NCBI GenBank assembly: GCA_035771165.1
Contig: JAWNZC010000238.1
Coordinates: forward strand, 2,722,501 to 2,786,500
Reading direction: 5' to 3'
DNA: 64,000 bases
Source: Paragorgia papillata
Lineage: Eukaryota; Cnidaria; Anthozoa; Scleralcyonacea; Coralliidae
The notes under the pieces are model-generated. The model was not told the DNA's origin and did no database searches. It saw only the letters and a list, made by a program, of their open reading frames with translations. The position numbers were made by a program, and so were the translations under genes. Numbering within the stretch: position 1 is the first letter of the stretch; every line of letters begins with the position of its first letter. Positions 14,398 to 35,902 of this stretch are shown piece by piece.

Positions 14398-14607
14398 AGT
14401 AGTGTCAAAAGGCGGATCCTGGGCCAAACCTTAATGGCCGCCATTTGTTTACTAAAATTTTGTTTGACGATCCTGGGACATGGTTCGCGACCCCCTCCTG
14501 GAATTTTTTGGGTTGGGACTTTGACTTCCGGTTGCTTTAAAATTTTTGACTTCCGTTTCTGGAATATTTTGACTTCCGGTTTGGGGAATGGTTGCCAAGT
14601 TTTTGGG
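14398..14607 (+). repeat. Polinton left terminal inverted repeat
   Basis: These 210 bp match the complement of 35693-35902 base for base as far as I could compare. Three copies of GACTTCCG start at 14523, 14548 and 14571. At the inner edge ATGGTTGCCAAGTTTTT is reiterated three times (about 14588-14656), while the right end has one. Confidence 0.95.
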
Positions 14608-14712
14608 GAATGGTTGCCAAGTTTTTTAAAGATGGTTGCCAAGTTTTTGGGATTTTTTGGGATTGGGGTTTTGAAATTGGGTTGTTTGTTTTTTTTAAAT
14701 AAAAAGAATAAA

Positions 14713-14979
14713 ATGCGAAAAAGAAATGAAGAAAACAAATGCATTCAATATTGTTATAACAAACGCCATTACACTTGCAAAAATTGTAAGTTTGAAACAA
14801 ATACATACACTACAATGAGGTTACACTACAAGTCTGTTCATGGGGTTGAAATGATAGGTTCTAACCATATATGCTCAAAATGTTCCAAAACTTTTAAAAC
14901 AAAAAAAGAACAAATTAATCATTACAAATCTCATGAAATAAGAATAACTTGTCATTCAAAAAAACCCAAAAAACTTTAA
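14713..14979 (+). CDS. Polinton two-finger C2H2-like protein
   Basis: An 88-residue basic protein beginning MRKRNEENK just inside the left inverted repeat. It carries two C2H2-type fingers: CKNC...H...H at roughly residues 21-43 and CSKC...H...H at roughly 56-76, followed by a lysine-rich tail. Such a protein could bind DNA, perhaps element ends or promoters (inference). The frame is open further upstream through the inverted repeat, but the Met at 14713 follows AATAAA and precedes the first finger, so I chose it. The family is not recognised. Confidence 0.55.
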   Translation: MRKRNEENKCIQYCYNKRHYTCKNCKFETNTYTTMRLHYKSVHGVEMIGSNHICSKCSKTFKTKKEQINHYKSHEIRITCHSKKPKKL

Positions 14980-15038
14980 ACATTCCTTTAAAGTTTGAAT
15001 CGTTCTTGACAGATTTTAAAAATTTTAAAAAAATAAGA

Positions 15039-15296
15039 ATGATCTCAAACAAAGAACTATTAAAAATTAAACTCCGACAGAAATTACAAGAAAAGAAAAA
15101 CCACCGTTTGGACCAAACAGACTATGATAAAAACCACTATGCAAATGTTGGAGGAACAGAAAGCGACCAATGGATACAAAAGACCCTCAAAATTGGTAAG
15201 TCCAAACATACCCCAACCATACCTTCCCTAAAAACTGCAAGACAAACACTGAAAAACAACAAAAAAATGGTTGCATTACTGGAATCCATACAGTAA
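15039..15296 (+). CDS. Polinton small basic protein, paralog of the one at 24380-24631
   Basis: An 85-residue, lysine-rich helical protein. It shares with the 83-residue minus-strand protein at 24380-24631 an N-terminal KLRQKLQEKKNHRLD-like helix, an HTP motif in the middle and a C-terminal KMVALLESIQ-like end (KMDKLMKSIQ in the other). An upstream in-frame Met at 14949 would overlap the zinc-finger gene; the paralog's length favours 15039. Function unknown; a small nucleic-acid-binding or core protein is possible. Confidence 0.5.
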   Translation: MISNKELLKIKLRQKLQEKKNHRLDQTDYDKNHYANVGGTESDQWIQKTLKIGKSKHTPTIPSLKTARQTLKNNKKMVALLESIQ

Positions 15297-15334
15297 ACCA
15301 CAAAACAAGAAAAAACCCAAAACATCCACAAAAT

Positions 15335-15357
15335 TTGTATCCTTAAGTTGGATACAA
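15335..15357. terminator. Hairpin between convergent genes
   Basis: TTGTATCC, a 7-base loop, then GGATACAA: an 8-bp perfect stem in the 75-bp gap between the plus-strand gene ending at 15296 and the polymerase gene ending at 15372. Placement suggests a transcript-end signal. Confidence 0.55.
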
Positions 15358-15371
15358 CTTTTGAACTTAAT

Positions 15372-18300
15372 TTACTTAGTTTTGTAATGGCCAATCGCAA
15401 GAGTTGAGATACCATCATCCATAATTATTCTTTTGTCGTCTTCTGAATTTAGTGCAATCTTATTTACATGGATGGTGTGGATGGTATGTTTGGTACTTCT
15501 AAAAGTATTCATTCCTCTTAGTTCATTTTTTCCTGTGGTCAAACAGTTGTAATAATCATCAAATTTGATGTTATTGTTGATGACCGCCTTTGCAACTCCT
15601 TTGCATTTTTTTTCTTCCTTTTCATCCCACAAACCAGTTAATGGGTTTTTCTTTTTTGCCATTTTGATGGCATAAGCTTTTGAACGCAATCCCACAAACT
15701 TTGAGATTTGGTCAGCACCTGTTTCTAACTTCATCATACCAAGTACTTTTTTGTTCATTCTTTTGATACCACTTGGATGGTCCTCTGGAAAGTTAGAGGT
15801 GTCAAACTTTTTTGCAACATCTGGTGTAATATCTTTGAAAAAATCTTTTGTTTTAATTTCATAACACAAGGAGTCTGTGTCTGTAAACAACAACTTTGCC
15901 CGATCCCCATATTTTTGCTTTACATAATTGTAATGAAAGTCATACATGGTAATTTTACTCTTATCCAATATTGCTGCTCCACAATATATGGGTTTGTTTA
16001 ATTTTACTCTTGACTTTCTCATATGCACAGCACCCAAGTTTTCTGAGAAATGACTGAATGCTTTGTATGTTGTTTTTTTTGCTAATTTTTCAAACTGGTC
16101 CTCAAATGACACCAGTCGGAAGTCATCCCTGTTTCTGACATTTTCCATGGTCTTTCCAAAAGGGGAGTTATTCATTAGTTTAAAGAAATCCTTCTCAAAG
16201 TCATTCTTGGCGGCTGTTCTTAGTTTTGTGTTTAACATGATGTAATCTTTCATCCATGCCTTTTCATTGAATGAAATTCCACGATGGATTTTTGTCAGAA
16301 CCAAACCATGATCCACCATTTGTTTCAAGGCTTCATAGTGGACAACATATTTCTCCTTATCATTCAAATTTGGAACCAGCTTTTCAACCTTGTCAATCAT
16401 TAATCTTTCAGCTGCAAATGGCATTTCATTGTGCAGATTATGGAGTTCTTCTGGATATTTAAGATCCACTTCTAGAAAACACCCCTTGCCTTCTCTTAAC
16501 AAATATTTTTGCCAGTCTTTAAGTTCATCTTTTGGTACCCACTCAAAACCACCAACTGGCAATGGTTGAACCATTGAATGACCATACAGATTGTTTTTGT
16601 CGAGGTATGGAATGTAAATGCTTTCTTTTTCAGGATTGAAGTCCTCCATATACTTATTGTTTGCTTCTGCATATCTGTGGGTGATGGTTGAAATCCCACC
16701 ACGAATTCCTTTTTCAATCATTAAAAACATATCAGGTTCTGTTAAAAGTTCCAGCTGTTGTTCTGACATTTTTAACAGGGCATCCCAAGCCAATCCAGGA
16801 GCTGTGTAGTGCCACATTGGGTCAAGTTTGTAAGTGGTTTTGCACATCTTTCTAAAACTTTGGATGACGTCCGAAAGTCCCAACACATCTGTTTTCAAGT
16901 ACAGTTCCATATAATCTCTCAAACTTTTGCAACCAAACTTGTTCCAAACTTTTTGGCCATGTTCATAATCTTCGGCACTGACATTTTTTCCTGTCAGTCT
17001 GGAATGAAACTCCTTGTGTGGTGGAAATTCTTTTACCTCCAACTTTTTTCGGTTGTTTAGAAATTCATATGGAAACACCCCCTTTCTTTTCAACAGATCC
17101 ACATCTTCCTTTGGGTAATCTTTGAAACCATTTTCGGTGTAGTGGAACTCGTCATTTGGTAAGTTTGATGTCAGTGTGGCCAAAGAACTTGACATAAATT
17201 TTAATGAGTCCAAGAATCGCAACTCCAGTGGCACCCACTTCTTTTTTAACTCTCCTGTTTTTGGATCCTTTTTCATCCCACCATCCATCCATAGTTTCTT
17301 ATTTACACTGATGTACTCCTCATCAGTTTTTGCTATGCAACCAATGGTACCACTTGAGATCCCCAAATATTTTACTAACAAATGACTGTCATATCCACTG
17401 AAATTATGGAAAAGAACAGGAATGTGTCTGGCACTTGCCATCGAGTAATTGCAGTCATTGTGGGCTGCTCCTCTGTACCTTCCATTTAAATGGTCATGAT
17501 CTCTAACTTTTGACTTGGGTGTATTTTTGTTAGCTTTCCACAAACTTCTTGGATCTAAACATTTGGGTTTCTTATATACAAACACACCACCACAGACATA
17601 GCACTTGGTTGCATTTTGGAAATTTTGTTCATCTTCCATTGTCATGATGATCTTTTTTGGTTCTTTGAGATATGTGTGCCAAATCTTTTTTGCTTCTTTT
17701 TCAAGACTCTCGACAAACATTTGACCAATATCTTCAAAATCATATTTTTTTGTGTGGCTTACATATTTACCAGGAAATACAGATGGATCAGAACAAATAA
17801 TGTTGAACCCATAACTGATTGGAATGTGTTCCTGATATTTTTGGGTGTAACTTTCTTTTTCGTTGTTAACTCCTGTTTTTAAAGTTTTCAACATACACTC
17901 GAAGTCAGCCACAATGATGAATGGCACATTTTGAGTTTTTTTGAAATCTTTTAAACCCCAACCCATAACAGAACCTTTTTCTGGATATTCTTGGATCTGT
18001 GCAACATGGGATTGACAAATAAGATGGCTTTCGTGTTCTTCCAATGCTACCTCTGTTTCAAAAGGGTTCAAACAAAAGTCGCAGAAGAATTTTTTACTTT
18101 TGTGTTTGTTAATTTGTTTTGTTAGAAGTTTACTTTTGTCCTTTACACAGCTGAAATGGTCATTCCACCAAAATAAGTTGACCCTCTTTTTGTGTTCGGA
18201 TCTTGAGATTCTCATCTGGAAAACTTTTTTGATCTCATCATCCCAACTTAAGACATTGACACCAATCTTATTTAACTTTTCAAATTTTGAGATGTCCTTA

Positions 18301-19340
18301 ATTTTTACAGGAAATGTTAGACCTGCCACATCATATTCTTCCACCATAAGTTGGATTGACACTGGAATCCCCCCAAGTTTTTTGGCATTTGGCTCTTTTT
18401 CCAGGGTTTCAGCAATGGCGACTGCGTACAGAAAACAATAGTCATCTTTCAAGTTTTGGGGGTTGATGATTGCTTTTTTGTTTTTGACAGGTTTTGGTAG
18501 GTCCTGAAACTTTTTACCATTTAAAGGTTTGTATTTTGTTATGGATATGTGTAAAGATTCAACAGATCGTATGGACCATCCAGAACCTTTCTTTTGATGA
18601 GATGACAAATTTTCAAGCATCTCTCTTTTTGACTCTTTGTACAACTCCGTGACGTCTTCAGTGGTTGTCATGGCTTTCATGTGGGATGTAAAGTAAAAAA
18701 GGTCAACACTTTCGACACCATCCACATAGTTATAGTGGACCAACTTACAAACTAATGTTGTTTTGACTTTTTTGGAATTTTCAATACTGTTTATGAGTTT
18801 TTCAACGCTGGCTGTGGTCTGTTCCAAAAACACCCCTGGATCTTTGTAATTTTGGCCCGAGATCTCATACAGGGCTGACTTTCCATTTAAGAAATCTTTG
18901 ATCATAATGGGCTCTGTTTGACGAATTTTTTTGTTAATTTTTGTCTTTTTTCTAAAAATTTTTGTTAGTTTGTTACCAAGGACTTGGCGGGTTTTCTTAA
19001 GTTTTTTGCTAGTACCCAACCATTTCTTGTCCCACTTAATTTTGTCTTGCCTTGCCTCTTCCTGTTTGATCTCCTTGGTCCATTTTGCTCGTTCCTTTGT
19101 CTGTAATTTTCTCTCTGTTTTTTGTTGAAATTTTTTAAGATCATCTTGGAGTCTATCTTGCTGGTTAACAAGTTTTTGCTCCATTTTTAACTCCTTCTCC
19201 TTCTGTTTTTCTTGGAGTTTGGCAAGTCTTTCGGGATTGAAGGGTTTCATTTCTTTGTCCCTCTGCAGCTGCCTCTGTTTTCTAAGACGGGCAGCTTCCC
19301 GAATTTTAAGAAGTTTTGGATCATTCGTAAATTTTGTCAT
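15372..19340 (-). CDS. Polinton family B DNA polymerase (protein-primed type)
   Basis: A 1322-residue DNA polymerase expected to copy the linear element from its ends. An N-terminal Lys/Gln/Glu-rich segment (1-130) looks coiled-coil. CDFC...H...H at 420-439 is a zinc-finger-like motif. Exonuclease motifs are ADFE (478-481), HNFSGYD (645-651) and YLKTD (814-818). Polymerase motifs are A, YLDKNNLYG (912-920); B, NNSPFGKTMEN (1057-1067); and C, FTDTDS (1152-1157). Between ExoI and ExoII lies CYVCGG...DHDHLNGRYRG...NDC (580-630), resembling an endonuclease VII/HNH zinc fold. AATAAATA lies 8 bases upstream of the start. The frame is intact, so the enzyme is probably active. It is by far the longest gene in the element. 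Confidence 0.96.
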   Translation of the reverse strand: MTKFTNDPKLLKIREAARLRKQRQLQRDKEMKPFNPERLAKLQEKQKEKELKMEQKLVNQQDRLQDDLKKFQQKTERKLQTKERAKWTKEIKQEEARQDKIKWDKKWLGTSKKLKKTRQVLGNKLTKIFRKKTKINKKIRQTEPIMIKDFLNGKSALYEISGQNYKDPGVFLEQTTASVEKLINSIENSKKVKTTLVCKLVHYNYVDGVESVDLFYFTSHMKAMTTTEDVTELYKESKREMLENLSSHQKKGSGWSIRSVESLHISITKYKPLNGKKFQDLPKPVKNKKAIINPQNLKDDYCFLYAVAIAETLEKEPNAKKLGGIPVSIQLMVEEYDVAGLTFPVKIKDISKFEKLNKIGVNVLSWDDEIKKVFQMRISRSEHKKRVNLFWWNDHFSCVKDKSKLLTKQINKHKSKKFFCDFCLNPFETEVALEEHESHLICQSHVAQIQEYPEKGSVMGWGLKDFKKTQNVPFIIVADFECMLKTLKTGVNNEKESYTQKYQEHIPISYGFNIICSDPSVFPGKYVSHTKKYDFEDIGQMFVESLEKEAKKIWHTYLKEPKKIIMTMEDEQNFQNATKCYVCGGVFVYKKPKCLDPRSLWKANKNTPKSKVRDHDHLNGRYRGAAHNDCNYSMASARHIPVLFHNFSGYDSHLLVKYLGISSGTIGCIAKTDEEYISVNKKLWMDGGMKKDPKTGELKKKWVPLELRFLDSLKFMSSSLATLTSNLPNDEFHYTENGFKDYPKEDVDLLKRKGVFPYEFLNNRKKLEVKEFPPHKEFHSRLTGKNVSAEDYEHGQKVWNKFGCKSLRDYMELYLKTDVLGLSDVIQSFRKMCKTTYKLDPMWHYTAPGLAWDALLKMSEQQLELLTEPDMFLMIEKGIRGGISTITHRYAEANNKYMEDFNPEKESIYIPYLDKNNLYGHSMVQPLPVGGFEWVPKDELKDWQKYLLREGKGCFLEVDLKYPEELHNLHNEMPFAAERLMIDKVEKLVPNLNDKEKYVVHYEALKQMVDHGLVLTKIHRGISFNEKAWMKDYIMLNTKLRTAAKNDFEKDFFKLMNNSPFGKTMENVRNRDDFRLVSFEDQFEKLAKKTTYKAFSHFSENLGAVHMRKSRVKLNKPIYCGAAILDKSKITMYDFHYNYVKQKYGDRAKLLFTDTDSLCYEIKTKDFFKDITPDVAKKFDTSNFPEDHPSGIKRMNKKVLGMMKLETGADQISKFVGLRSKAYAIKMAKKKNPLTGLWDEKEEKKCKGVAKAVINNNIKFDDYYNCLTTGKNELRGMNTFRSTKHTIHTIHVNKIALNSEDDKRIIMDDGISTLAIGHYKTK

Positions 19341-19358
19341 GATGCTATTTATTATGGT

Positions 19359-19532: not shown

Positions 19533-19545
19533 AAAACTTCATAAA

Positions 19546-19577: not shown

Positions 19578-19666
19578 GGAAAAAAATATTGATGACAAAA
19601 GTTTACAATGAAGCATAGTCTTAGAAAACAGTCGGTTACTGTTTATTAGTGTGGTTTTTAAAAAAT

Positions 19667-20161
19667 TTAACGACTTATTGACCACCATTCACCACAAAAC
19701 CAAACATTCCTGTTTTTTTTAATGCAATAGGGGATGTAACTTGGATTTCTATGCAAATTTAGGGCTGCATTGTAAATACTTGGAAACTTTAATGTTTCGC
19801 CAGCAGCAGAAGTTAAAGTTATTTTAACAGGTGTCCTAATGACATTTCTGTGGTGCTTGTCATAAACTTCATTTTTAACATGTTGGATTTCCAATTTCTC
19901 GCAAATGGTTTCCAAATTTAGACTGTGGGATCCTTTAACACCAAGTTTTGATCCTATTTGTCTCAGTTCTTTAAGAGATGTGGGTGGTAAATTTTCATCT
20001 CTTATTGTTTGAAGTCGTTTGGTTGCACTTTCTCTAAGTTGCATACGAATTTGAAATAATTTTTTGAGTTCCATAAGTTTTTTTTGACGACCGGCTTCAA
20101 GTTCAACTTCTTCTTCGTTTTGTAAATAGTTGTTGATGTTTTCAGGTGTTAATGTTGTCAT
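19667..20161 (-). CDS. Polinton SAP-like plus IENR1/NUMOD-like protein (one module)
   Basis: A 164-residue protein. Residues about 60-95 form a short helical segment (LKELRQIGSKLGVKG) resembling SAP-type DNA-binding helices. The C-terminus (about 110-164) has the pattern of nuclease-associated modular repeats: PVKITLT..., then KFPSIYNAALNL, ending in a WFCGEWWSI block. The neighbour at 20600-21436 carries two such modules, so the two are paralogs. No nuclease catalytic core is visible. A DNA-binding role is inferred. The start is preceded by AATAAAC. Confidence 0.5.
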   Translation of the reverse strand: MTTLTPENINNYLQNEEEVELEAGRQKKLMELKKLFQIRMQLRESATKRLQTIRDENLPPTSLKELRQIGSKLGVKGSHSLNLETICEKLEIQHVKNEVYDKHHRNVIRTPVKITLTSAAGETLKFPSIYNAALNLHRNPSYIPYCIKKNRNVWFCGEWWSISR

Positions 20162-20599: not shown

Positions 20600-21436
20600 T
20601 TATTTGCGTTTTACAGACCAATATTTACCATCGTACCAAACAATTGTTTTATTTTTGATGTAATATTCAATACTTTTGTGTGTTTTTTTTTCTAATGCAA
20701 GGGCTGCTTGGGTCATACTTTGAAACTTGATTGTCTCTCTTTTAAAAGGTACCACTGCTGTAAACAAAACTTTTATGGGTTTGGTGTTGTTGTTGTTATA
20801 TTTTATATGTTCAACATAAGGTAACCCAAGTTTGTAACACAGTGTTTTGTTAGTAAGGTCTCTTGGGGCCGCTATTCCGATTTTAGAAGCTAATCCAAAT
20901 AGCTCTGGTTTTGGAATTGAGGAAAAGGGTGTAAGTTTAGAAAATTCTAAATTTTTTTCATGCAGTTTTTTCTGTAAAAGTTCAACCTCAACTTCGTCTT
21001 CTGTTTTTTGTGTGTGGCAACTGACTTTCCAAATTTTTTCGTTATACTCAATGATGGTTTCATTTCTAATATAGTAGTAAATACTTACTTCTGTTTTCCC
21101 AACAGCGAGGCCAGCCTTGGCCATACTTTGAAATTTAATTTCGTCGTTACCATCAACCTCTGTAAAAGTTGTTTCAACAGGAAGCAAATTATAAAGATTT
21201 GGATTACCTGGGTTTTTATGTGGATGAAATTTCAATCCAAGCATTTCAAAAAATGTTTTGCGTGTTGTTAAACCGCTTATATCTTTAAATCCTTTTTCAT
21301 AAGATAAGGTGTGTAACTCCGAACATGATAAATAGGAATCTGTCTCAGATTTTGGATTATGAAGTTTCTCTAGTTTTTCATACAACTCATTTTGTAAAAG
21401 TTTTATTTCTAAATTTAACTGATCTTTACTTTCCAT
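20600..21436 (-). CDS. Polinton two-module SAP-like/IENR1-like protein
   Basis: A 278-residue protein made of two copies of a helix plus modular-repeat unit. The first is at about 1-145 (KFQSMAKAGLAVG...YYYIRNETIIEYNEKIWKVS) and the second at about 147-278 (KFQSMTQAALALEKK...EYYIKNKTIVWYDGKYWSV). Each has a preceding SAP-like helix pair with a leucine-rich pattern. It is a paralog of 19667-20161. These domains are associated with homing nucleases and DNA recognition; no catalytic residues are visible. The start is at ACAATAAATGG. Confidence 0.5.
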   Translation of the reverse strand: MESKDQLNLEIKLLQNELYEKLEKLHNPKSETDSYLSCSELHTLSYEKGFKDISGLTTRKTFFEMLGLKFHPHKNPGNPNLYNLLPVETTFTEVDGNDEIKFQSMAKAGLAVGKTEVSIYYYIRNETIIEYNEKIWKVSCHTQKTEDEVEVELLQKKLHEKNLEFSKLTPFSSIPKPELFGLASKIGIAAPRDLTNKTLCYKLGLPYVEHIKYNNNNTKPIKVLFTAVVPFKRETIKFQSMTQAALALEKKTHKSIEYYIKNKTIVWYDGKYWSVKRK

Positions 21437-21532: not shown

Positions 21533-22039
21533 TCAACTGTTATTGGGATCAACAGAATTGCTACCACTGAGATTTTCAGAAGAATTTTCATCAGTTTGTA
21601 CTGTAACATTTTTTTTATTTAAAGTTCCTCCCTTGTCCCAAACATGTTTAGCGATAATGATGCCACCAGTGAGCAAACCAATCATTGGAATATATGGCGA
21701 AATTTTTCTGACCATACACCTAACGTCATCGCAGAAAAGTTTGTTTGAAGAAAGTTCAGCATCCAATTTTTCATCATCCTGCACCAAATCCAGTTGTTCC
21801 AATAACTCTGAAAATTTGGTTACAAGGGTCTCAGTTAACAGAGAAGTTGTTTTGTCAAGTTGGGTTCTCTCATAATTTAGCTTAATTTTTTCAAGTTGGT
21901 TCATCGAAGCTTTTTTCAGATATGCTTCCGAATATTTGATCTCCTTTGCAAAGGATAAGCGAATTAAATCTTCTCGAAGTGTCAAATTTTGCGGTTCTTC
22001 ATTTTTTTCGTCATTCATTGTTGCGTATTCTGTGTTCAT
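21533..22039 (-). CDS. Polinton helical protein with one membrane segment
   Basis: A 168-residue protein. Residues 1-105 are charged and helical with coiled-coil character. A hydrophobic helix lies near 115-132 (YIPMIGLLTGGIIIA) and a polar, Asn/Ser-rich tail follows. Probably a membrane-anchored virion component (inference). It starts at ATTATAAATGA. The next gene upstream ends 12 bases before it. Not recognised. Confidence 0.5.
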   Translation of the reverse strand: MNTEYATMNDEKNEEPQNLTLREDLIRLSFAKEIKYSEAYLKKASMNQLEKIKLNYERTQLDKTTSLLTETLVTKFSELLEQLDLVQDDEKLDAELSSNKLFCDDVRCMVRKISPYIPMIGLLTGGIIIAKHVWDKGGTLNKKNVTVQTDENSSENLSGSNSVDPNNS

Positions 22040-22051
22040 TTATAATGGTGT

Positions 22052-23368
22052 TTATTTTTTCTTATAATTTTTGTATTCTGTGTAAACAAAATATGTCAAA
22101 CCTATTGCAAGGACCCACAGATTTTTTGCCAGCCATGCTAATCCTTTTGCTCCCCATGACAAAGCAGTTGCCAATATGCTAAGAATTGGTGCCAATACGG
22201 GCCAAGCAAGTTTTGCAAGTTTCGCCAATGCTTTTGCTAATGCTCCTGTTGCCTTTGCAGTAGTTACAACAGCAGCTTTTCCGGCTAAAACAACAGTTGT
22301 TATGATCCCACCAATGGAAATGGCAATTGCAGCTGTTGCTCCCATGTTTTCTTTGGCCCATTCTTTAAATTTTTCGAATCTGGTTCGGATATGATCCCTA
22401 AGCAAATTTTTAACATATTCGGATTCTGGTGGTAAGTTGTACAACAGTCTAAGTTCTTCTGCTCTAAGTCTACACACAACCTCAACCTCCCTGAACTTTC
22501 TTTTTTTTACTGGATCTTCTTCTTTGTCTGCTATATCTTTCCAAAACTTTTGGTTAATTACAACAGACCTCAAATCTGTTGCTCTTAGGGTTCCTCTAAG
22601 GTTTCTAAGAGCACCATCACCAGCAACTGTATCAATATCTCCATCATCATTTGCTTCAATGTTGTCCATACCTATTGTTACTTCATCACCCAAATCTCCG
22701 GCGACATTTTCTCGAATGTTTGTTACATCTTCAAAACTGGTATTTTCTGGGTTAAGTCCTGCTTGTTTTGTGGTAACATAGTCTGCTGATTGTTGATATG
22801 CTTCCTGTGCGCTTAAATACATTCTGTTGAACTCTTTTAATATGTTGGCGGCTTTTGTTCTATCTTCTTCTGCAAATTTTTCAGGGTTGGTAAATCGGAA
22901 TTTGCCAGGATTTTCTGCATCCTTGACAAGAACCATAAATCCCTTAAAAGTAATTCCACCGGGCTCTCTTTTATTTTCTGGATCTGCGAATAGTGTACTT
23001 TGACTTATTAAGTCAATGGCAGATTTTCCATAAGATTTGTTAATTGGAAATCCTAACCTTTCGTTAAAAAATTTTGTTTTTTGTTTGGTAGCAGAGGTTT
23101 TGTTTTTTGTTCGTAGTTTTTTTATCCATTCATCAAGTCTAGCCTCAAAACCTTGTTTTGTTTCTTTTGTTTTTGGGGTTGCAGTTCTAACTCTATCTTT
23201 TAAAGTTTTGTAGTTATCATCCGAGTGGTCATATGGATCAAAGTCAAAACTTTCAAAAAGATCATTATAAGATTGATTAAAATCTTTGTATTTAATGTTT
23301 TCTTTTAACGGGGTTGATCTCTCAGGCATTTCATATTCTTGTTCTTGACCAGGTACATTATCAGCCAT
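22052..23368 (-). CDS. Polinton large protein with C-terminal hydrophobic/amphipathic domain
   Basis: A 438-residue protein. The first 90 residues are acidic and polar; a folded-looking middle (about 90-335) carries many Lys/Arg/Glu helices. The last 100 residues form a chain of Ala/Leu/Lys/Trp-rich amphipathic or membrane helices beginning near MGATAAIAISIGGII and ending in a KKK tail. Such a layout fits a membrane-interacting structural protein. No family is recognised. It lies immediately downstream of the integrase gene with a 12-bp gap. Confidence 0.5.
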   Translation of the reverse strand: MADNVPGQEQEYEMPERSTPLKENIKYKDFNQSYNDLFESFDFDPYDHSDDNYKTLKDRVRTATPKTKETKQGFEARLDEWIKKLRTKNKTSATKQKTKFFNERLGFPINKSYGKSAIDLISQSTLFADPENKREPGGITFKGFMVLVKDAENPGKFRFTNPEKFAEEDRTKAANILKEFNRMYLSAQEAYQQSADYVTTKQAGLNPENTSFEDVTNIRENVAGDLGDEVTIGMDNIEANDDGDIDTVAGDGALRNLRGTLRATDLRSVVINQKFWKDIADKEEDPVKKRKFREVEVVCRLRAEELRLLYNLPPESEYVKNLLRDHIRTRFEKFKEWAKENMGATAAIAISIGGIITTVVLAGKAAVVTTAKATGALAKALAKLAKLAWPVLAPILSILATALSWGAKGLAWLAKNLWVLAIGLTYFVYTEYKNYKKK

Positions 23369-23380: not shown

Positions 23381-24352
23381 TTATGTCTGTTCTCCAATAA
23401 CTTTAACCAACTCCTCACCATAAAATTTTCCCATAATGTCCTCCTCCTTATCCCGAATTCTATACATAACAGGAACTCCTCTGAAAACAGCTGACACAGT
23501 AAAAATTTCATTTGTAAAATTTGGATCATAACCTTTTGCAAAGTTTTTTCTGTATTTTTGGATTCTTACATGATCCCCAATTTTGAATTTTGGGTTTACT
23601 TGAGATTCAAGAGGCGGGATCCCATACAGGGTAAAGAAAACTTTGGATTGGTTGCCATTATTGACATCCTTTGGTTTCATTTTAATGGTGCTGTGGATTG
23701 TGTTGTTGTAACTATTTGTAAACTTGTCAAGACTATTTAACCACTCCTTGTTCCCTTTAAAAGTAAAAAATTTCCACATTCTGGTTTTCAAAGTTCTGTT
23801 AAATCTTTCCACAAGTGCAGCCTTTCTGTGGGATCTGGATGAAAAATATTCTATGTTTAGAGATTTCAAAAGAGTTTTTACACCAACATTGTAAAACTCC
23901 TTTCCCTCGTCAAACTGGACTGTTTCTGGATATTTGCCAAATCTTTTCTTAAATTCTTCCAACATTTTGCTAACACCAGGCACCATAGCGACAGTACTCT
24001 TTCTTTTAACAGGAACAGCGAAACCAAATCTTGACAAAATTTCAATACCTGTCAATATCCACTTTTGATCATTATTTTCAGAACCAAATTTCGCCATATC
24101 CACCAAGTCCATTTGCATTTGGTCGGCAAGATTTTTAACGAATGTTTTTTGGTATTTTTTTGGTTTTTTGATGGGTTTGTGCAATGTAAAAACTTTTTGG
24201 CTGTGTAACCACTCCCTAACCAGTTTTCTGGTTATTGAAGAATTTTCTTTAACAGCAGCTTTGTAAAGTTTCTCCATGGATTGGTAGCCAGTTACAGGGT
24301 TGTAGTAAATGTCTCGAAGTTCAAGATCAATAAGTAAAAGTTTATCTTCCAT
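23381..24352 (-). CDS. Polinton DDE integrase (rve)
   Basis: A 323-residue integrase that inserts the element with 6-bp duplications. The catalytic triad is Asp82 (MDLVDM), Asp148 (VQFDEGKEF) and Glu182 (AALVERFNRTLK), in the order and spacing of retroviral-type integrases. The N-terminal 70 residues are helical and may replace the zinc-binding domain. The C-terminus (about 255-320, from FKIGDHVRIQK) looks like the SH3-like DNA-binding domain. The frame is intact and the adjacent start motif AAAATAAATGG is clear. Confidence 0.93.
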   Translation of the reverse strand: MEDKLLLIDLELRDIYYNPVTGYQSMEKLYKAAVKENSSITRKLVREWLHSQKVFTLHKPIKKPKKYQKTFVKNLADQMQMDLVDMAKFGSENNDQKWILTGIEILSRFGFAVPVKRKSTVAMVPGVSKMLEEFKKRFGKYPETVQFDEGKEFYNVGVKTLLKSLNIEYFSSRSHRKAALVERFNRTLKTRMWKFFTFKGNKEWLNSLDKFTNSYNNTIHSTIKMKPKDVNNGNQSKVFFTLYGIPPLESQVNPKFKIGDHVRIQKYRKNFAKGYDPNFTNEIFTVSAVFRGVPVMYRIRDKEEDIMGKFYGEELVKVIGEQT

Positions 24353-27541: not shown

Positions 27542-28201
27542 TTATGGAGTCTCATAATTCTGTGGACACAAAAAAATCTCAAGAAGGATGTCGCCAACAT
27601 TGTGGTCAACTTTAAATTTGAGTTCGTTGTAAACACCATTGTCCAGCATTGCCTCAGAGTTGATGTTTGCAAATTTTTCAACTGATCCCTTCAATAGTTG
27701 TCTTGTTGTAATTGGAAGAACTGCAGCTGTTCTGTCCCGTTTTCCTGAAAATGATGTCCTAGTTCCATCAATCATTTCGCAAGATATACAAACAAATTTC
27801 ATTCCAAGATTTATGTTGACTGTTTTTGGACTGACCATGCCGGTCCGGTTTCCTGATGATCCCCTAATTATTGTTGTTTCTGGATATCCAAGCAAAGGAC
27901 CAAGTTTGAGTAAATGTAGGTCTTCTGTTGGGTATAGTTTAATTTTGCAGCTGTATGGAAGTAATTCTGACTTTATTAAATTTTCCTTTAGCACCCTCAT
28001 AATCATGCCAACAGTCCAATAGCCATTGTCGAAACTAATTTTTTTTGTCCCATGCATGACGTAAGTTGGACTTGTTAAATTATTGTAATTCCAAAAAACT
28101 GTTGCATCCTTAACCATTAGTTTGGTATCTTCAATGATCAAAGGATCTTCAAATTTAACTGTTGTTTCTCCGTTTTTCAACAAAATTCTTAGGTTCCTCA
28201 T
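27542..28201 (-). CDS. Candidate minor capsid (penton) protein
   Basis: A 219-residue beta-rich protein next to the ATPase and major capsid candidate, the position expected for the penton of Polintons and Polinton-like viruses. It shows alternating hydrophobic strands and no helices of note, fitting a single jelly roll. I do not see a diagnostic motif, so the call rests on size, strand pattern and gene order. Start at AGATAAATGA. Confidence 0.5.
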   Translation of the reverse strand: MRNLRILLKNGETTVKFEDPLIIEDTKLMVKDATVFWNYNNLTSPTYVMHGTKKISFDNGYWTVGMIMRVLKENLIKSELLPYSCKIKLYPTEDLHLLKLGPLLGYPETTIIRGSSGNRTGMVSPKTVNINLGMKFVCISCEMIDGTRTSFSGKRDRTAAVLPITTRQLLKGSVEKFANINSEAMLDNGVYNELKFKVDHNVGDILLEIFLCPQNYETP

Positions 28202-28268: not shown

Positions 28269-28898
28269 TCAAAAATTTATCAAGTTTTCCCCAAATGGTT
28301 CAACTATTTTGTGGTCATATGGGTGGATTAAATTGATCTCTAATTTTGAATATTTTTTTGATTTTAATGTTTCTTTTATTTTTTTTTCTTCTTCTTTTGG
28401 TATGTCTAAATAATCATCTAAAATAACTTGCATATCTTTTCTGTTTGGGTTGTAAAAGGTAACCAGTTTTGAAATATTTTCCCGATATGGTTTCGCAATG
28501 CTTGTCAACTGTTGGGTAACAACTATTGTACTAATATTCATATGCCTTGCACCAAAACCAAGTTTTACCAATTCGCTGGTTCTGTTTTTGACACTCTGTC
28601 CAGAAGCACAGTCATCCAGGATAATGAGACTTGGGGTTCCTTTACAATAATCAACAACATATTTTAGAAAATCTTCAGACTCATCTTGGTCGCAAGGGAT
28701 AACAAAGAATCTTGGATCATGTAAATGTTCCCATTCCAAATATGTTTTGTTCCATACAAAAGTTGGACATATTAAAACTATGTTTTCAAATTTTTTTTTA
28801 TAATTTTCTTCTAAATTTTTCAACAAATAATGAGTCTTTCCACAACTCGTCATTCCAACAATGATTATATTGAATGGTTTTGGATCTTCGTTTTCCAT
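28269..28898 (-). CDS. A32-like (FtsK/HerA) packaging ATPase
   Basis: A 209-residue ATPase that would pump DNA into a capsid. Walker A is GMTSCGKT (15-22), Walker B is LIILDD (91-96) and a TQQ sensor-like motif lies at 128-130. Size and spacing fit the A32/Polinton ATP family. It ends upstream of the penton candidate and starts 16 bp from the end of the capsid gene, giving the usual ATPase-MCP cluster. Start at AAATAAATGG. Confidence 0.92.
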   Translation of the reverse strand: MENEDPKPFNIIIVGMTSCGKTHYLLKNLEENYKKKFENIVLICPTFVWNKTYLEWEHLHDPRFFVIPCDQDESEDFLKYVVDYCKGTPSLIILDDCASGQSVKNRTSELVKLGFGARHMNISTIVVTQQLTSIAKPYRENISKLVTFYNPNRKDMQVILDDYLDIPKEEEKKIKETLKSKKYSKLEINLIHPYDHKIVEPFGENLINF

Positions 28899-28914: not shown

Positions 28915-30126
28915 TCAATAATTGACACTCTGGAATGCCCCTCCTTGGACTTTCAATAAGCCATCCGAGAGAATGAAAACATGACATCTCAAATCTGTTG
29001 CTGTTGCCTTTTTCTTGATTTCTAACATAATCCCAGATTGTGTAGTCAAAAGTTTTGTACCATCTCCATAGACAGCATTGTCATTAATTGACCGAAGATC
29101 CACAACAAGTGCAAACTGGTTTTCTGTAAAGAATTCGTCAGCTTGGATTGTTGGATAGTTGGTATGTCTGAAAAGTCGCTCAGCCTCTTCAAACAATCTT
29201 CGTTTTGGGATGCCTTGGGAGTAAATGCTGTTTGGGACTCCTTCGATGGTAATTTTGACTCTTTCAATGTTGGGATACACAAATTCTTCAGATCCACTTC
29301 TTGTTGCCTTTGTAAACAACATTACAACCGCCTTCATGCTTTTTCTTGGCAGGTTAATGGTTTCGTTAATTAATGTTGTGGCAGCAGCCCATGGTGTGGT
29401 TTTCATCAAAGTTACATGTTCAAAGGAAAGTGCGCGACCCATTTGGTAAGAAGATTCGATCTCCTGGACCAAGGCAAAGTTGGTAATGGTTTCATATTCC
29501 AACTCGATATTTTCCAGAACATACCCAGCCACAGATTGACTACTTTGTGCCTTCATGATATCGGTGGCTTTTGGAAGAGTGATGATATATTGTAAATCAT
29601 TCGCCATACTGTGGGGTGCATATAACCCATGATCCTTTAAAATCATGTCCAACTTGATCCTCTGTTTTGTTCCATATACAGCAGCATATGTGTCAGAAGA
29701 GGCATCATCAGATTTCGAAATAAGTTTTCGCTGATTTTCTGTCGCGATACCATCTTCGATCATGTTTGCCCTCTCATGTTTGTCCAACCACAAATCTTTG
29801 TAAGTCCCCAAAAGACTCTCCCCTGTGTTGTCATAGACTTTTTCTCCTGCAAATCTTACTTCTAAACGTTCTTGGAGTTGTCTTGCAAGATTGTTATTAA
29901 ACCAAGATTTTGTGTTCTTGTTCTTAAAGTCAAACAGAAGGAACATCTTGTCAGGAACTAATGTTGTCCCTGGTTTGAGTTTTGGAATGTGGATGTAAAT
30001 AACTTCTCCTGCATTGGCAGAATTGGGATTGAAAGTAATTACATTCCGGGCTCGTTCCCCAGTTATTGAACTTCTGTGTAACCGGTTGAAACCGGGTTCT
30101 AATTCAACTTCTCTCTCAGTATTCAT
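28915..30126 (-). CDS. Candidate major capsid protein (double jelly roll)
   Basis: A 403-residue, beta-strand-rich protein directly next to the packaging ATPase, the standard place of the Polinton major capsid gene. The N-terminus (ELEPGFNRLHRS) is followed by two halves of similar strand-rich composition with charged loops. At 403 residues it fits the shorter double-jelly-roll capsid proteins. It is the best candidate by position and size, but no motif proves it. The virion would self-assemble from trimers of it. Start at TAATAAATGA. If this is not the capsid protein, no other gene fits better. Confidence 0.65.
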   Translation of the reverse strand: MNTEREVELEPGFNRLHRSSITGERARNVITFNPNSANAGEVIYIHIPKLKPGTTLVPDKMFLLFDFKNKNTKSWFNNNLARQLQERLEVRFAGEKVYDNTGESLLGTYKDLWLDKHERANMIEDGIATENQRKLISKSDDASSDTYAAVYGTKQRIKLDMILKDHGLYAPHSMANDLQYIITLPKATDIMKAQSSQSVAGYVLENIELEYETITNFALVQEIESSYQMGRALSFEHVTLMKTTPWAAATTLINETINLPRKSMKAVVMLFTKATRSGSEEFVYPNIERVKITIEGVPNSIYSQGIPKRRLFEEAERLFRHTNYPTIQADEFFTENQFALVVDLRSINDNAVYGDGTKLLTTQSGIMLEIKKKATATDLRCHVFILSDGLLKVQGGAFQSVNY

Positions 30127-30147: not shown

Positions 30148-30438
30148 TTAATAATTATTGAAAAATTCATCTTCATTTTCAAATTCTTCTTCAAAATCGT
30201 TTGGCATCAAAAGATCAAAATTTGACCACAAATGATAACAATGGTTTTCATTATAATTTTTGGTATCATATTTACTATACAACAACCAAAGTTTGTATCC
30301 TTCATAACTTCCCTTTGAGATTAAAAAAATAAGTTTTCCAATATTAAACCAGTTTTTACTTCCAAAAACACATTCTGTTGCATAACTGTTGACAATCATG
30401 TTTATTGAATTTCTTTCCAATTGTGGAAAGAATTTCAT
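30148..30438 (-). CDS. Polinton acidic protein of unknown function
   Basis: A 96-residue protein with aromatic residues in the first 70 positions and a strongly acidic, Asn/Glu/Phe-rich end. Its start lies 9 bp past the next gene's end. No family is recognised and no catalytic residues of the protease type are seen. Confidence 0.4.
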   Translation of the reverse strand: MKFFPQLERNSINMIVNSYATECVFGSKNWFNIGKLIFLISKGSYEGYKLWLLYSKYDTKNYNENHCYHLWSNFDLLMPNDFEEEFENEDEFFNNY

Positions 30439-30447
30439 TTTAAAAAT

Positions 30448-30819: not shown

Positions 30820-30838
30820 TTATTTAGTTGTGGTTTGT

Positions 30839-31117: not shown

Positions 31118-31119
31118 TT

Positions 31120-32214
31120 TTATTTTATTTTTAAAATGGTTTGTTTCTTCTCAATTTTTTTTATAAATATTTTTTTAAAGTTATTGTTCGCCTTTTTTTT
31201 TTTCTCCTTACAAATTAAACTCGCATAATGGATTATTGTCCCTATTGAAAAACTGGTTTCAACAGGGTTTTCCCAAAATTTGTTGCACTCACTTTCATCA
31301 TATTTTTCTGGACATTTTTGAGAAAAGAGGTGCCAGAGATCTTTGCCATAATCTTGTCCATGACTTTCATTGTAAAGTGCGAACCCAACAGACCTCCATG
31401 ATGTGTAATCCTCAGCAACATCATCTGGAATTTGGTCAATATAATTTTTTAACTCTTCCTCATCTTTTTGTTTGTGTTCATTAAAATCAATGATGGTTAC
31501 ACTTTTTACACTTTTTTCAATCTCTGGCACAAATAATAATTTACTAATTTTTGTGTGTGGCTTTTGTCTGACTGAGAGCAAGTGGATGAGTTCTTGGTTT
31601 GAATATTGGCTTGCAACATGGTTCCTCTTCTCCTCAATAATGTAACTAAGAAGGTATGGATCCGATGTTGGGCTCTTTTTAGAACCATATAGAAACCAGT
31701 TCCCACTAATGACTGCATTGTCAAGTTGGATTTTTGTTCTCTCTTGCACAAGGTTGTTAATGTGGAGTCTTTCATTCCGAGTCAACCAAACATGTGGTAA
31801 GTGTAAGTGGAAACCATTTTTGTATACACCATCCTTGTAATAACCCGGTTTTTCAAGAACAAAGCAATCCAAATTTTGTGGGTTTTCAAGATTTTCAACC
31901 AATACTTTTTGGAATAGTCTTGTCAGTTTTTGGACTTGTTTTTCTGTGTACAAAGGTTTTGGGTTTTGGGTCTTCCTTTTTAGATCAATGTCAATAATTA
32001 TGGGTCCAATTTCTGTTGTTCTTTCTAAAAGATATCTGTTGAAATTTCCAGATTTTGACAAATATGTGTATGCCTTTGTATATTTATTTAGGAGATCATC
32101 TTCATTTTTAACAAAATATGGTCTTTTGTTGTAAAGATCCATATGCGTAATATTTTCCTTGCTAAAACTTTCATACAACAAAGTTGATAATGTGTTTTGT
32201 TTAAACATAGCCAT
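31120..32214 (-). CDS. D5-like archaeo-eukaryotic primase with PriCT-2 domain
   Basis: A 364-residue primase. The metal-binding DID motif is at 75-77 (GPIIIDIDLK), the nucleotide-binding FHLHLP at 135-140, and the third Asp at 165 (IQLDNAVI) followed by YGSKKS at 176-181. These are the signatures of the D5-type AEP. Residues about 266-332 (DDVAEDYTSW...GKDLWHLFSQKC...DESECNKFW) match the PriCT-2 domain. The usual SF3 helicase is missing. It would make RNA or DNA primers, unusual next to a protein-primed polymerase. Most animal Polintons are not known for such a gene (family knowledge). Confidence 0.8.
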   Translation of the reverse strand: MAMFKQNTLSTLLYESFSKENITHMDLYNKRPYFVKNEDDLLNKYTKAYTYLSKSGNFNRYLLERTTEIGPIIIDIDLKRKTQNPKPLYTEKQVQKLTRLFQKVLVENLENPQNLDCFVLEKPGYYKDGVYKNGFHLHLPHVWLTRNERLHINNLVQERTKIQLDNAVISGNWFLYGSKKSPTSDPYLLSYIIEEKRNHVASQYSNQELIHLLSVRQKPHTKISKLLFVPEIEKSVKSVTIIDFNEHKQKDEEELKNYIDQIPDDVAEDYTSWRSVGFALYNESHGQDYGKDLWHLFSQKCPEKYDESECNKFWENPVETSFSIGTIIHYASLICKEKKKKANNNFKKIFIKKIEKKQTILKIK

Positions 32215-32235
32215 TCTTTCTTTTATTTTTTTTCT

Positions 32236-33786
32236 TTAACTCAATCTAAGGAGGTTGATTTCAACATCCCAAACATTGAAAAACAGGAAAGTATAGTCAT
32301 CACCAATAGAACCAGAATAGGAGTGTAAAGACATTTGGGTCCCTTTCTTAATAGTTGCAATTCCTTGACAGAAAACATTGTGTGGAGCATGTTCATTGTA
32401 TGTCCTTCCCATGGTTATGGTTTCCAAACCTGAAAGTTTGTTTGATCTATCTGTAATGTTACCATGGTAAAGATTTGTTTTTAAGTCAAAATAAGCATTG
32501 TAAGTGGTTCCATCATACCAAGATGATTTTTTACTCTGTTGGTCTATTTTGTGTCCATCGGGTTGGAGTTTAAACCAATATGAGACTAAATATTTTCCAG
32601 TATCATGGGTTGCTGTAAATGAGAGCAGGGTGCTAACGTTATTTGTGTTATCCCATGCACCCCCTTTATGGTTTGTTTTTCCACTATCTTTCTTATATTT
32701 TACCAACTGCGAAAAAGTTCCAGCTGGTCCAGTGACTCCTGTAACACCTCTCAAACCTCTCAAACCTCTCAAACCTGTTGACCCTTTGCCTCCTGGCAGT
32801 CCTCGAACTCCTTGGTCGCCTTGGTCGCCTTTGGGTCCTGGATCTCCTTTATCCCCTTTTGTTCCTTGGGGTCCTTGGGGTCCTTGCGATCCTGTTGAAC
32901 CTGTGTTTCCTTTGGCTCCTGTTGATCCTTGGCTCCCTTGTGGGCCTTGGGCACCCTGTGGACCTTGGGGTCCTGTTGCCCCAGTGTTGCCCTTGTTCCC
33001 TTTCGCACCATCGTCACCAGGATCTCCTTTGGCTCCTTTTTGTGCAGCTGTTCCTGCCATACCTTTGTCTCCCTTGTCACCCTTGTCTCCTTTGGATCCT
33101 GTTGCACCTGTTGTTCCATGGTCACCTTTGTCTCCTTTTTGACCTTGTGGTCCTGTTGCACCTGCTGTTCCAAAAGTACCTCTGTCGCCTTTGGTTCCTT
33201 GTGGTCCTCTAATGCCAGTGTCCCCTTTGTCTCCTTTGGTTCCTTGCAAACCTCGATCGCCTTTGTTGCCTTTTGGTCCAGTGTTACCAACATCTCCCTT
33301 GTCTCCTTTTGGTCCTACTTTATGTGCATCTGTACCAGCCATGCCTGTCAAACCTCTGTCACCCTTGTCACCCTTGTCACCTTTAGAACCTTGTGGTCCT
33401 GGATCTCCTTTTTGTGCAGCTGTTCCTGTTGGACCTTTTGGTCCTGTTGGTCCTATTGCACCTCTATCTCCACTATTTCCTTTGTCACCTGTTAAACCTC
33501 TTTGTCCCTCCAAACCTTCGTCACCTCTGTCACCTTTGTTTCCTGTCAAACCTCTGTCACCTTTTGGTCCTGTTGGTCCTGTGGATCCTGTTGGACCTGT
33601 TGCACCTGTCAAACCTTGGTCACCTTTTGATCCTTTTGGTCCTGTGGATCCTGTTGGTCCTGTCAAACCTCTGTCCCCCTTGTCTCCTTTTGCACCTGTG
33701 TCACCTTGTGGTCCTGGTTCTCCGTCAGCACCACCACCACCTCCATAAGAATAATCTGGGTCATCATAACCATAGTAATAACTCAT
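32236..33786 (-). CDS. Collagen-shafted fibre with C-terminal globular head
   Basis: A 516-residue protein. [10 protein letters not shown] at the N-terminus is shared with the next gene. Residues about 20-356 are Gly-X-Y repeats, mostly perfect, with a few interruptions such as GTAAQKGD and [10 protein letters not shown]. The last 160 residues (TFSQ...) are a beta-rich, C1q/TNF-like globular head candidate with aromatic and Gly residues at strand ends. Collagen trimers carry trimeric heads, so this fits a virion spike or fibre. The C-terminal fold is inferred. Antisense proline-rich frames over the shaft are artefacts. Confidence 0.75.
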
Positions 33787-33814
33787 TATTTATTTAGAAG
33801 AAATTTTTTAACAT

Positions 33815-34639
33815 TTAGATGAAGTTTCCATATTCTTTCATCATATCCTTGTTAATTTTTACAATCTCGGGAGGTAATAATGGTCCATGAACAATTTTGA
33901 TCCCATAAATTTTTCCTTTTAGTTGGGTACTATTTGAGGGGGTTCCAGACAATCTTTTGTTTAAAAATACAGATCCAAATGGACTACCAATATCTGCCAA
34001 ATCCGATTTAAAATCTGATCCTGTCTCCTTTTTTGCATTTACGTAAACACAGGAACCAGTCCCCAACCAATGACAGGAAACTAAGTGTTTGCTAAGAATA
34101 CTGTGTGGGCCAACAATATCAAAAGTTTTTTTAGTGTTATCTCTTACACCACCAATTATCATTTTGGAGTAAGAGTATGATTTGAAACTGACATATTTAT
34201 CATAATTTCCATTATCATTCCCAATAAGATAACACCAATCGTCAGGTACAGATGTGTCAACAACAGCGCAAACAACAAAAACAGAAACATCATTAAACTG
34301 TAATTCGGTGTTGCAAAACATCATGTACTTACCACCTTTGTTTTCAATGTAGTCTATGCCAGGACCAATGGCATCCGAACCAAATGATGGGGCAATGGTT
34401 TTGTCATCTTGCCACAAAACAGAGTTACCTTGTCGTGCTTGGGTTATTCTTCTCTCACCACCATATGTTTCAAATGTTTTGGTGGCTTTTGTTATGTTGA
34501 GATCGAAAACAGTTTCATAATTTTCTTCATGCAGGGAAAGTTTTTTTAATTTTTTTTCAATTTCTTTAATTTTATCTCCATAATCAGTACCACCTTCCAA
34601 TGATCGCCTTTGTCTACCATAACCATAATAATAACTCAT
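33815..34639 (-). CDS. Second fibre-like protein with LamG/ConA-like domain
   Basis: A 274-residue protein. It begins MSYYYGYGRQRR, matching the first residues of the collagen-like protein. A short coiled coil (DKIKEIEKKLKKLSL) follows. The rest is beta-rich; near the end GSVFLNKRLSG...LKGKIYGIKIVHG...PPEIVKINKDMMKEYG is typical of concanavalin-A-like lectin/LamG folds. A host-binding role is likely but inferred. Start at AAATAATGAG. Confidence 0.65.
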   Translation of the reverse strand: MSYYYGYGRQRRSLEGGTDYGDKIKEIEKKLKKLSLHEENYETVFDLNITKATKTFETYGGERRITQARQGNSVLWQDDKTIAPSFGSDAIGPGIDYIENKGGKYMMFCNTELQFNDVSVFVVCAVVDTSVPDDWCYLIGNDNGNYDKYVSFKSYSYSKMIIGGVRDNTKKTFDIVGPHSILSKHLVSCHWLGTGSCVYVNAKKETGSDFKSDLADIGSPFGSVFLNKRLSGTPSNSTQLKGKIYGIKIVHGPLLPPEIVKINKDMMKEYGNFI

Positions 34640-34657
34640 TATTTATCTTGCAAAATT

Positions 34658-34675
34658 TTTAACATTTTTGTTAAA
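34658..34675. terminator. Hairpin after gene 34712-35416
   Basis: TTTAACA, a TTTT loop and TGTTAAA form a 7-bp perfect stem downstream of the acidic coiled-coil gene and upstream of the fibre gene start. Confidence 0.5.
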
Positions 34676-34711
34676 GATTTTTGTTTTTGTTTATGTTTTT
34701 TTTAAATGGTT

Positions 34712-35416
34712 TTAAAGTTCAATGCAATCGTCTTCTTCTACAAGTTGTCGGTCTTCTTCTTCAATAATTCCAAGTTCGTCAGATACTTCTTCAAAGCCTT
34801 CGTCATCATCAGAGTCATTAGAGTCGTCATCATCGTCATCAATTTCTTCAAGTTCGTTGTTATCAGCTTGGTTTCTCAAATTTTCAACAATTCTTCTCAA
34901 ACTTTCTAGGGTTCTTTGGTATGTGTTAGGTTCATCTTCCTCTTCAATTTGATTTTCAATAATTTCAGTTTGTTCTTCATCTTCGGAGTCATCTTCATCA
35001 TCTTCCTCTTCAATTTGATTTTCAAAATTTTCAATTTGTTCTTCAAGATTTTCAATAATTTTTTCGTTAGCTTCGTTTTGTCTTACCAGAATTTCATTTT
35101 CGCTTTCCAAAGCTTCATTAAGTTTTTCCAAATGGCTGGTACAAGCCTCATTTTCAATTCTTTCATTTATAATTTCAATTTCTGCCATTTCATTATTTTT
35201 ACTCAAATTTTCATTGGCATTAATTTTCAGTTCCATGTTTTCCTCTTTAAGTTGTTCAATGCGAGTTTTCAGTTCCATGTTTTCTTCAGAAATTTTGGTT
35301 GCATTAATTCTTATTCTTAAAATTTTTTCAAGTTTGTCAGCTATCTCTTCCCCAAGCATTTGTTTAAGTTCAACAATTTCTTTGTTTAAACTTTTGATTG
35401 TTTCATTTGAGTTCAT
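34712..35416 (-). CDS. Polinton acidic coiled-coil protein
   Basis: A 234-residue protein. Residues 1-165 form a long coiled coil with heptads of Leu/Ile/Glu. The C-terminal part is a run of Asp/Glu/Ser (EEDDEDD, DDDDDD). Such proteins may act as scaffolds or bind basic partners such as the small lysine-rich proteins of the element (inference). It may equally interact with host factors. Not recognised. Confidence 0.55.
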   Translation of the reverse strand: MNSNETIKSLNKEIVELKQMLGEEIADKLEKILRIRINATKISEENMELKTRIEQLKEENMELKINANENLSKNNEMAEIEIINERIENEACTSHLEKLNEALESENEILVRQNEANEKIIENLEEQIENFENQIEEEDDEDDSEDEEQTEIIENQIEEEDEPNTYQRTLESLRRIVENLRNQADNNELEEIDDDDDDSNDSDDDEGFEEVSDELGIIEEEDRQLVEEDDCIEL

Positions 35417-35455
35417 TCTTATTCTTTTAATTTTTTTCGAAAAAAATAGTTCGAT

Positions 35456-35656
35456 TCAAAAAACTGTGTCATATACCCCAGTTCTAACCAACATTTGGGT
35501 TTTTGTTTCGCCTGGATGTATGTAGTTGCAAACTGTTCCTGGATGTGTACTCTTGTTAAAATATATAATATTTGGAGGTTTACCTGGGTATGTTGTAAAT
35601 CCAACCCACATACATTTTTCCCTGTCTGGACATAAGTTACTTCTTTTGCTATTCAT
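35456..35656 (-). CDS. Polinton small Cys/His protein near the right end
   Basis: A 66-residue protein starting MNSKRSNLC. Cys at 9, 15 and 43 with His at 47 (CPDREKC...CNYIH) may form a CCCH-like zinc site, although the C15-C43 spacing is longer than in known CCCH fingers. It is the first gene inside the right inverted repeat, which may make it early expressed. AAATAAAG precedes the start. Unknown. Confidence 0.4.
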   Translation of the reverse strand: MNSKRSNLCPDREKCMWVGFTTYPGKPPNIIYFNKSTHPGTVCNYIHPGETKTQMLVRTGVYDTVF

Positions 35657-35692
35657 CTTTATTTCTGTTTAAAAACCCACCAACCCCAGAAA

Positions 35693-35902
35693 CCCAAAAA
35701 CTTGGCAACCATTCCCCAAACCGGAAGTCAAAATATTCCAGAAACGGAAGTCAAAAATTTTAAAGCAACCGGAAGTCAAAGTCCCAACCCAAAAAATTCC
35801 AGGAGGGGGTCGCGAACCATGTCCCAGGATCGTCAAACAAAATTTTAGTAAACAAATGGCGGCCATTAAGGTTTGGCCCAGGATCCGCCTTTTGACACTA
35901 CT
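35693..35902 (-). repeat. Polinton right terminal inverted repeat
   Basis: Complement of 14398-14607. It contains three GGAAGTC blocks and one TTGGCAACCATTCC unit at its inner edge. The last bases, CACTACT, are followed by the target duplication. Confidence 0.95.

Follow-up and report, generated by a model that had tools for sequence, protein, structure and literature searches.

A Polinton with a base-exact empty twin site and a stand-alone primase in Paragorgia papillata, probably an integrated copy of a capsid-forming virus

According to PMC8097293, it is still debated whether Polintons (Mavericks) should be seen as transposons or as viruses. The same text reports 134 intact vertebrate elements from 17 species, with at most 38 intact elements per genome, and takes the strong purifying selection on their core genes as a sign of spread by virions. 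Cnidarian capsids fall outside the main Maverick cluster according to a passage of PMC10120064, and a protein architecture joining an exonuclease, a polymerase B and an OTU-like domain is described in a passage of PMC11071308. Here we report a Polinton of 21,505 bp (positions 14398-35902) in a 64,000-nucleotide stretch of the genome of the anthozoan Paragorgia papillata (assembly GCA_035771165.1, contig JAWNZC010000238.1, positions 2,722,501 to 2,786,500 of the forward strand; hereafter the window). We propose that it is probably an integrated copy of a Polinton-type, capsid-forming virus that repeatedly seeded the host germ line. Like the vertebrate Mavericks of PMC8097293, the element and its relatives combine 6-bp duplications, inverted repeats, an integrase, a capsid, a packaging ATPase and purifying selection. 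They differ in that more than 100 open capsid genes occur in one genome, under a looser definition of intact, and in the presence of a primase and the lack of a recognised protease, the word primase being absent from that main text.

Examination of the boundaries of the element reveals two terminal inverted repeats of 210 bp (14398..14607, beginning with AGTAGTGTCAAAAGG, and 35693..35902) that match at 210/210 positions, the first difference being the very next base inward. Both are bordered by the hexamer TTGGTT (14392..14397 on the left and 35903..35908 on the right), giving the combination of terminal inverted repeats and a 6-bp target site duplication that is typical of Polintons. The same end structure, an AGTAGTG terminus next to a perfect 6-bp duplication, recurs in 12/12 further repeat pairs inspected elsewhere in the genome, which excludes chance as its source. 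Furthermore, a tandem paralog of the flanking DNA carries a single, uninterrupted TTGGTT at 8632..8637, and the joined flanks of the element reproduce this empty site exactly over the 60 bp aligned on each side. The left flank (9676-14397) is 97.2% identical to 3924-8637 (4742 columns, 87 mismatches, 1.8%), and the right flank (35903-36969) is 95.6% identical to 8632-9680 (1071 columns, 21 mismatches plus gaps). There are no mismatches between the paralogs in the 600 bp to the left of the junction, which suggests a conversion tract. These comparisons bear out, to the base, a preliminary description of this DNA that had proposed an intact Polinton with identical 210-bp repeats, TTGGTT on both sides and a natural empty site next door. 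That description had also dated the insertion after the tandem duplication of the surrounding G-protein-coupled receptor (GPCR) genes, an order that is likely but not proven. An insertion as old as the paralog divergence would be expected to show about 3.9 differences between its repeats, and none is observed (Poisson probability about 0.02), so that the duplication likely came first and the insertion second. The observations could equally result from conversion between the repeats, from conversion between the paralogs, or from unequal crossing-over involving a chromosome that lacks the insertion. Four tandem, intronless frames of rhodopsin-family GPCRs surround the insertion (4417-5346, 10171-11097, 38846-39778 and 46286-47215), the Pfam 7tm_1 match having been checked on one copy. 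A search with the host GPCR gave three matches, none of them to a named cnidarian sequence and one to a distant Xenopus protein.

Between these ends, 26 hand-picked open frames span 91% of the element, and the core frames are open. The gene at 28915..30126 (minus strand) codes for a double jelly-roll capsid protein of 403 amino acids (aa). A structure model built with 23 relatives has a mean pLDDT (predicted local distance difference test score) of 81 and matches the iridovirus and PBCV-1 capsids best (E 1e-16 to 4e-16), with mavirus lower (5.5e-11); a viral structure library again returned double jelly-roll capsids. The genome-packaging ATPase expected of a Polinton is encoded at 28269..28898 (minus strand) as a 209-aa A32-type protein with Walker A and B motifs (PF04665, E 6.9e-14, 52.3 bits, the cut-off being 22.8). 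A 323-aa integrase of the retrovirus type (RVE; 23381..24352, minus strand) is recognised by its D-D-E motifs and by profile matches that lie under the curated cut-offs, namely PF00665 (E 3e-6) and the NCBIfam IS481 model (E 1.3e-14); PDB sequences gave weak matches, some being integrases. It is open at 323 aa in 4/4 copies examined. A putative protein-primed polymerase of 1322 aa (15372..19340, minus strand) contains in order what we take to be the exonuclease I-III, polymerase A, B and C, and OTU Cys/His motifs, the OTU-like contexts starting, as motif matches in the sequence, at Cys 302 and His 392. An OTU-like domain at the N-terminus of the polymerase is a mark of adintoviruses. Whereas a separate terminal protein accompanies the Stylophora polinton in the relevant passage of PMC11071308, here about 300 residues preceding the OTU-like Cys are in frame with the polymerase. 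Finally, the collagen-repeat fibre protein of 516 aa with a non-collagen C-terminal part (32236..33786, minus strand; PF01391, E 3.4e-52) is accompanied by a candidate second fibre of 274 aa (33815..34639, minus strand), which has no Pfam match and has its first seven residues in common with the collagen fibre.

Relatives of the capsid were recovered as 240 homologs at E <=0.001; among the 120 listed, eight rows are named, all from the octocoral Paramuricea clavata, and these are 52-64% identical to it. Relatives of the capsid (searched as a single sequence and as an alignment), the primase and the polymerase were not found in viral-contig scans. PDB sequences gave no match to the capsid or the primase and two irrelevant matches to the polymerase. 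A lone weak match to the capsid in a phage search was judged to be due to chance.

The 617.9-Mb host assembly was searched for further copies, the resulting lists comprising the best-scoring candidates ranked by similarity to the copy in the window (the reference copy), so that all totals are lower bounds. Merging the capsid and primase lists gives at least 170 separate loci, each carrying an open capsid gene, an open primase gene or both, of the same family. The best 103 of 1071 first-look capsid candidates are all 98-100% identical, 403 aa long and free of stops, and the best 35 of 7863 polymerase candidates are 86-100% identical, full length and likewise stop-free. The best 112 of 888 primase candidates are 72-100% identical, with open frames of 351-469 aa. 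Many old, broken copies, which the preliminary description had named as the outcome that would contradict it, thus did not appear among these best-scoring candidates. Its suggestion that the element is possibly recently virus-borne holds up. One same-family capsid gene lies on the window's own contig (C238:2847607-2848815), about 96 kb downstream.

Both ends were fetched for 13 elements, the reference copy included; further pairs, among them those on C317 and C428 and another two on C229 and C1, lie outside this sample. All 13 pairs have perfect 6-bp duplications, each different in sequence. Over 3532 aligned columns the pairs taken together differ by 13 mismatches, with 4 gap openings, and several of these differences fall close to the inner edge, possibly beyond the true end of the repeat. 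Between elements the repeats have a median identity of 87%, and the silent divergence between copies is about 100 times the divergence between the ends of one copy. Near-identical repeats combined with such deep silent divergence indicate that the insertions look young and the lineages old. At C1:4296243-4322428 the outer ends share ACCATC and an extra internal repeat end stands beside an A-run at 4302010; this is a rearranged or nested copy.

The coding sequences evolve under strong purifying selection, and of the genes measured the capsid is the most tightly constrained. In nine full capsid genes (the reference and eight of the 102 others listed; 36 pairs) the mean silent divergence (dS) is 0.360 and the mean amino-acid-changing divergence (dN) 0.0093, with a dN/dS of 0.026 (single pairs 0.010-0.056). 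The corresponding ratio is 0.04-0.11 for the integrase in four copies, a range that touches that of single capsid pairs (up to 0.056), and 0.12-0.27 (median 0.16; dS 0.17-1.12) for the primase in 29 copies compared with the reference. Over about 4 kb in each of 30 copies, nearest neighbours are 82-98.2% identical, and no pair exceeds 98.2%. The copies also show signs of exchange. The repeats of a copy on C12 are identical to those of the reference copy (210/210 bp), and part of its 438-aa gene is 99% identical (dS 0.01 over 226 codons), yet the integrase, 12 bp away, shows a dS of 0.29 and the capsid one of 0.41, and the primase is 74% identical. The DNA just inside the repeats of these two copies is 88-91% identical where aligned, which indicates that repeats do pass between lineages. 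Silent distances of primase and capsid are weakly correlated (r 0.19, p 0.002; r 0.49 for the two halves of the primase as a control), and strict discordance of the type 'primase far, capsid close' is seen in 2/435 pairs, with none of the reverse type. Together, young ends, old lineages, some exchange and the strongest constraint on the capsid fit a repeatedly integrating virus population.

The constraint on the capsid also bears on the main alternative, a self-synthesising transposon that moves in the germ line without virions and is maintained by many active master lineages. If capsids were dispensable, the capsid would not be expected to be the most constrained gene measured, and a pair more similar than 98.2% is lacking among the 30 copies. 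We therefore regard this alternative as unlikely, even though an RVE integrase, inverted repeats and 6-bp duplications would be needed by a transposon just as much, a small cluster of closer copies is present, and the sequence analyses used cannot reveal particles. It is less probable still, and in our view doubtful at best, that the copies are old endogenous ones whose repeats were homogenised by gene conversion, so that their age is underestimated. The identical repeats of the C12 and reference copies beside more divergent DNA are what such a process would leave, but perfect duplications are kept in every pair examined, and stops are absent from every capsid and polymerase frame that was scored, albeit in the best-scoring copies. 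An assembly artefact, in which haplotypes with and without the element were joined as a false tandem duplication, so that the empty site would be an allele and the insertion heterozygous, is very improbable. The paralogs are close (97%) and share 600 identical bp beside the site, but the array holds at least four GPCR copies that differ in their distances, substitutions amount to about 2% and indels are numerous, and 12 further loci show ends of the same structure.

Several points weigh against descent from a capsid-forming virus. Open and similar copies are over-represented in lists of best-scoring candidates. Many primase rows contain 1-3 stops inside the aligned stretch; given that 347-359 of the 364 codons fall within the open segment in the 29 copies checked, these stops are placed near the end. 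A closer cluster (about 97-98%) unites four of the 30 copies, which thus have some recent shared ancestry. The correlation between primase and capsid distances, weak but present, and the few discordant pairs indicate exchange that is partial or for the most part older. Insertions might also look younger than they are if the two repeats of an element undergo gene conversion with each other, and purifying selection reflects use over the history of a lineage rather than the present function of any copy. The set of recognised particle genes is incomplete as well: a minor capsid protein was not identified by Pfam or by a single-sequence structure model, the candidate penton of 219 aa (27542..28201, minus strand) being proposed from position and size only, with no Pfam match and a model pLDDT of 32. 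Pfam recognised no maturation protease of the Ulp1/adenain type among the 27 element proteins scanned; since it failed to recognise the polymerase too, a diverged protease is possible. For the polymerase itself, searches of Pfam, PHROGs, NCBIfam and PDB sequences gave no polymerase match.

An unusual gene of the element encodes a 364-aa archaeo-eukaryotic primase of the C962R type with a PriCT-2 domain (31120..32214, minus strand; PF23162, E 8.3e-28; PF08707, E 4.7e-18), with its catalytic motifs and with no helicase domain found by Pfam. A homolog search returned one relative, P0121, which has both of these domains but is longer. Near the capsid gene lies a 96-aa PriCT-2-like protein (30148..30438, minus strand; PF08707, E 7.3e-4, just under the Pfam cut-off). 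The primase is present in 12/13 paired elements, of which 10, including the reference copy, are in the scored primase list and two more are open at 73%. A copy on C422 (C422:78030-81000) is without it: there a 92-aa gene and the collagen fibre gene almost adjoin, and the junction holds, in T-rich DNA, a short stretch matching the 3' end of the primase. Given this remnant, the primase was most likely lost from the C422 copy by deletion. A 79-aa frame similar to the PriCT-2-like protein is retained in that copy. Among the best 35 scored polymerases that of the C422 copy is the closest to the reference (94%), and its repeats are identical over 290 bp. From the existence of this otherwise similar element we infer that the primase may be an accessory in these elements, which is the least certain of our assignments.

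The element and its primase can be set against two groups of viruses. With MELD and polinton-like viruses, as described in passages of PMC11071296, PMC12220804 and PMC4642659, the element shares the co-occurrence of an archaeo-eukaryotic or PriCT-2 primase with capsid genes of the adintovirus-like or polinton-like type. In those viruses the primase is described as fused to a helicase and mostly replacing the protein-primed polymerase, whereas here it stands alone beside the polymerase, and the primase-helicase fusion in place of a polymerase that marks polinton-like viruses is not seen. With the giant viruses (nucleocytoplasmic large DNA viruses, NCLDV) it shares the C962R domain and a capsid fold closest to those of iridovirus and PBCV-1, but no helicase domain was found here, and the element is a 21-kb one with inverted repeats and an integrase. 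We tentatively suggest that the family might be a Polinton lineage in which DNA synthesis can begin either by protein priming or through an archaeo-eukaryotic primase that serves as an accessory. Such a lineage would circulate as a recombining virus of an invertebrate, would have seeded one germ line at least 170 times and would have left insertions far younger than its lineages.

In the life cycle that we propose, the RVE integrase would make a staggered insertion at the target, and the polymerase would replicate the linear genome, with protein-primed synthesis starting at the inverted repeats. The ATPase and capsid would package this genome, and the collagen fibres could attach the virus to cells. 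The diversity of the copies would then have arisen in a replicating and recombining virus population, by way of virions, and not through local copying of a few masters. Least certain is the part of the primase, which might lay primers on displaced single strands, so that the second strand is made or forks are restarted.

Among the remaining genes of the element, a 164-aa protein on the minus strand (19667..20161) is related to the C-terminal part of a 278-aa NUMOD1-like protein (20600..21436, minus strand; PF07453, E 9.4e-6), with a pairwise score of 146 against at most 61 in shuffles. They are followed by a 168-aa protein with a hydrophobic stretch, recognised from its translation and without a Pfam match (21533..22039, minus strand), and by a 438-aa protein with a hydrophobic C-terminus (22052..23368, minus strand). 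The latter is a candidate variable gene: at its position in 3/4 copies the best frame, perhaps not homologous, reaches an identity of 27-31% over 89-220 codons, although the neighbouring integrases have identities of 94-97%. An 83-aa accessory protein (24380..24631, minus strand) is a paralog of the product of 15039-15296 (score 90, shuffles at most 57), both being small, basic and encoded on opposite strands; a search of the region fetched from 4/4 other copies did not recover the 83-aa protein. On the plus strand lie a conserved 404-aa protein (24656..25870), open in 4/4 copies at 394-405 aa with a dN/dS of 0.07-0.11, and a candidate transcription factor of 216 aa with a zinc-ribbon-like cysteine pattern (25884..26534), which is open in 4/4 copies (dN/dS 0.18-0.21) and has no Pfam match. 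Near the right end is an acidic, coiled-coil-looking protein of 234 aa (34712..35416, minus strand), known from its translation and likewise without a Pfam match. In the unusual gene set listed by the preliminary description, the primase and the collagen fibre are thus upheld by Pfam, while the second fibre and the transcription factor lack library support. Elsewhere in the window there are a long array of 8-bp repeats at 43271-43720 and a reverse transcriptase fragment at 56166-57266 (Pfam RVT_1, E 3.8e-26), presumably of non-LTR (non-long-terminal-repeat) origin.

The element thus belongs to a known type; what is new is how many members of the family one genome carries, the occurrence of a stand-alone primase in an element that also encodes a putative protein-primed polymerase, and an empty twin site that matches to the base, with the proviso that a primase in stony-coral polintoviruses may already be described. 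As a single genome holds more than 100 open copies, the sampled ones young by their ends and old by lineage, the proposal that such elements are integrated viruses becomes directly testable in this animal by genotyping of insertions and by searches for particles and RNA.

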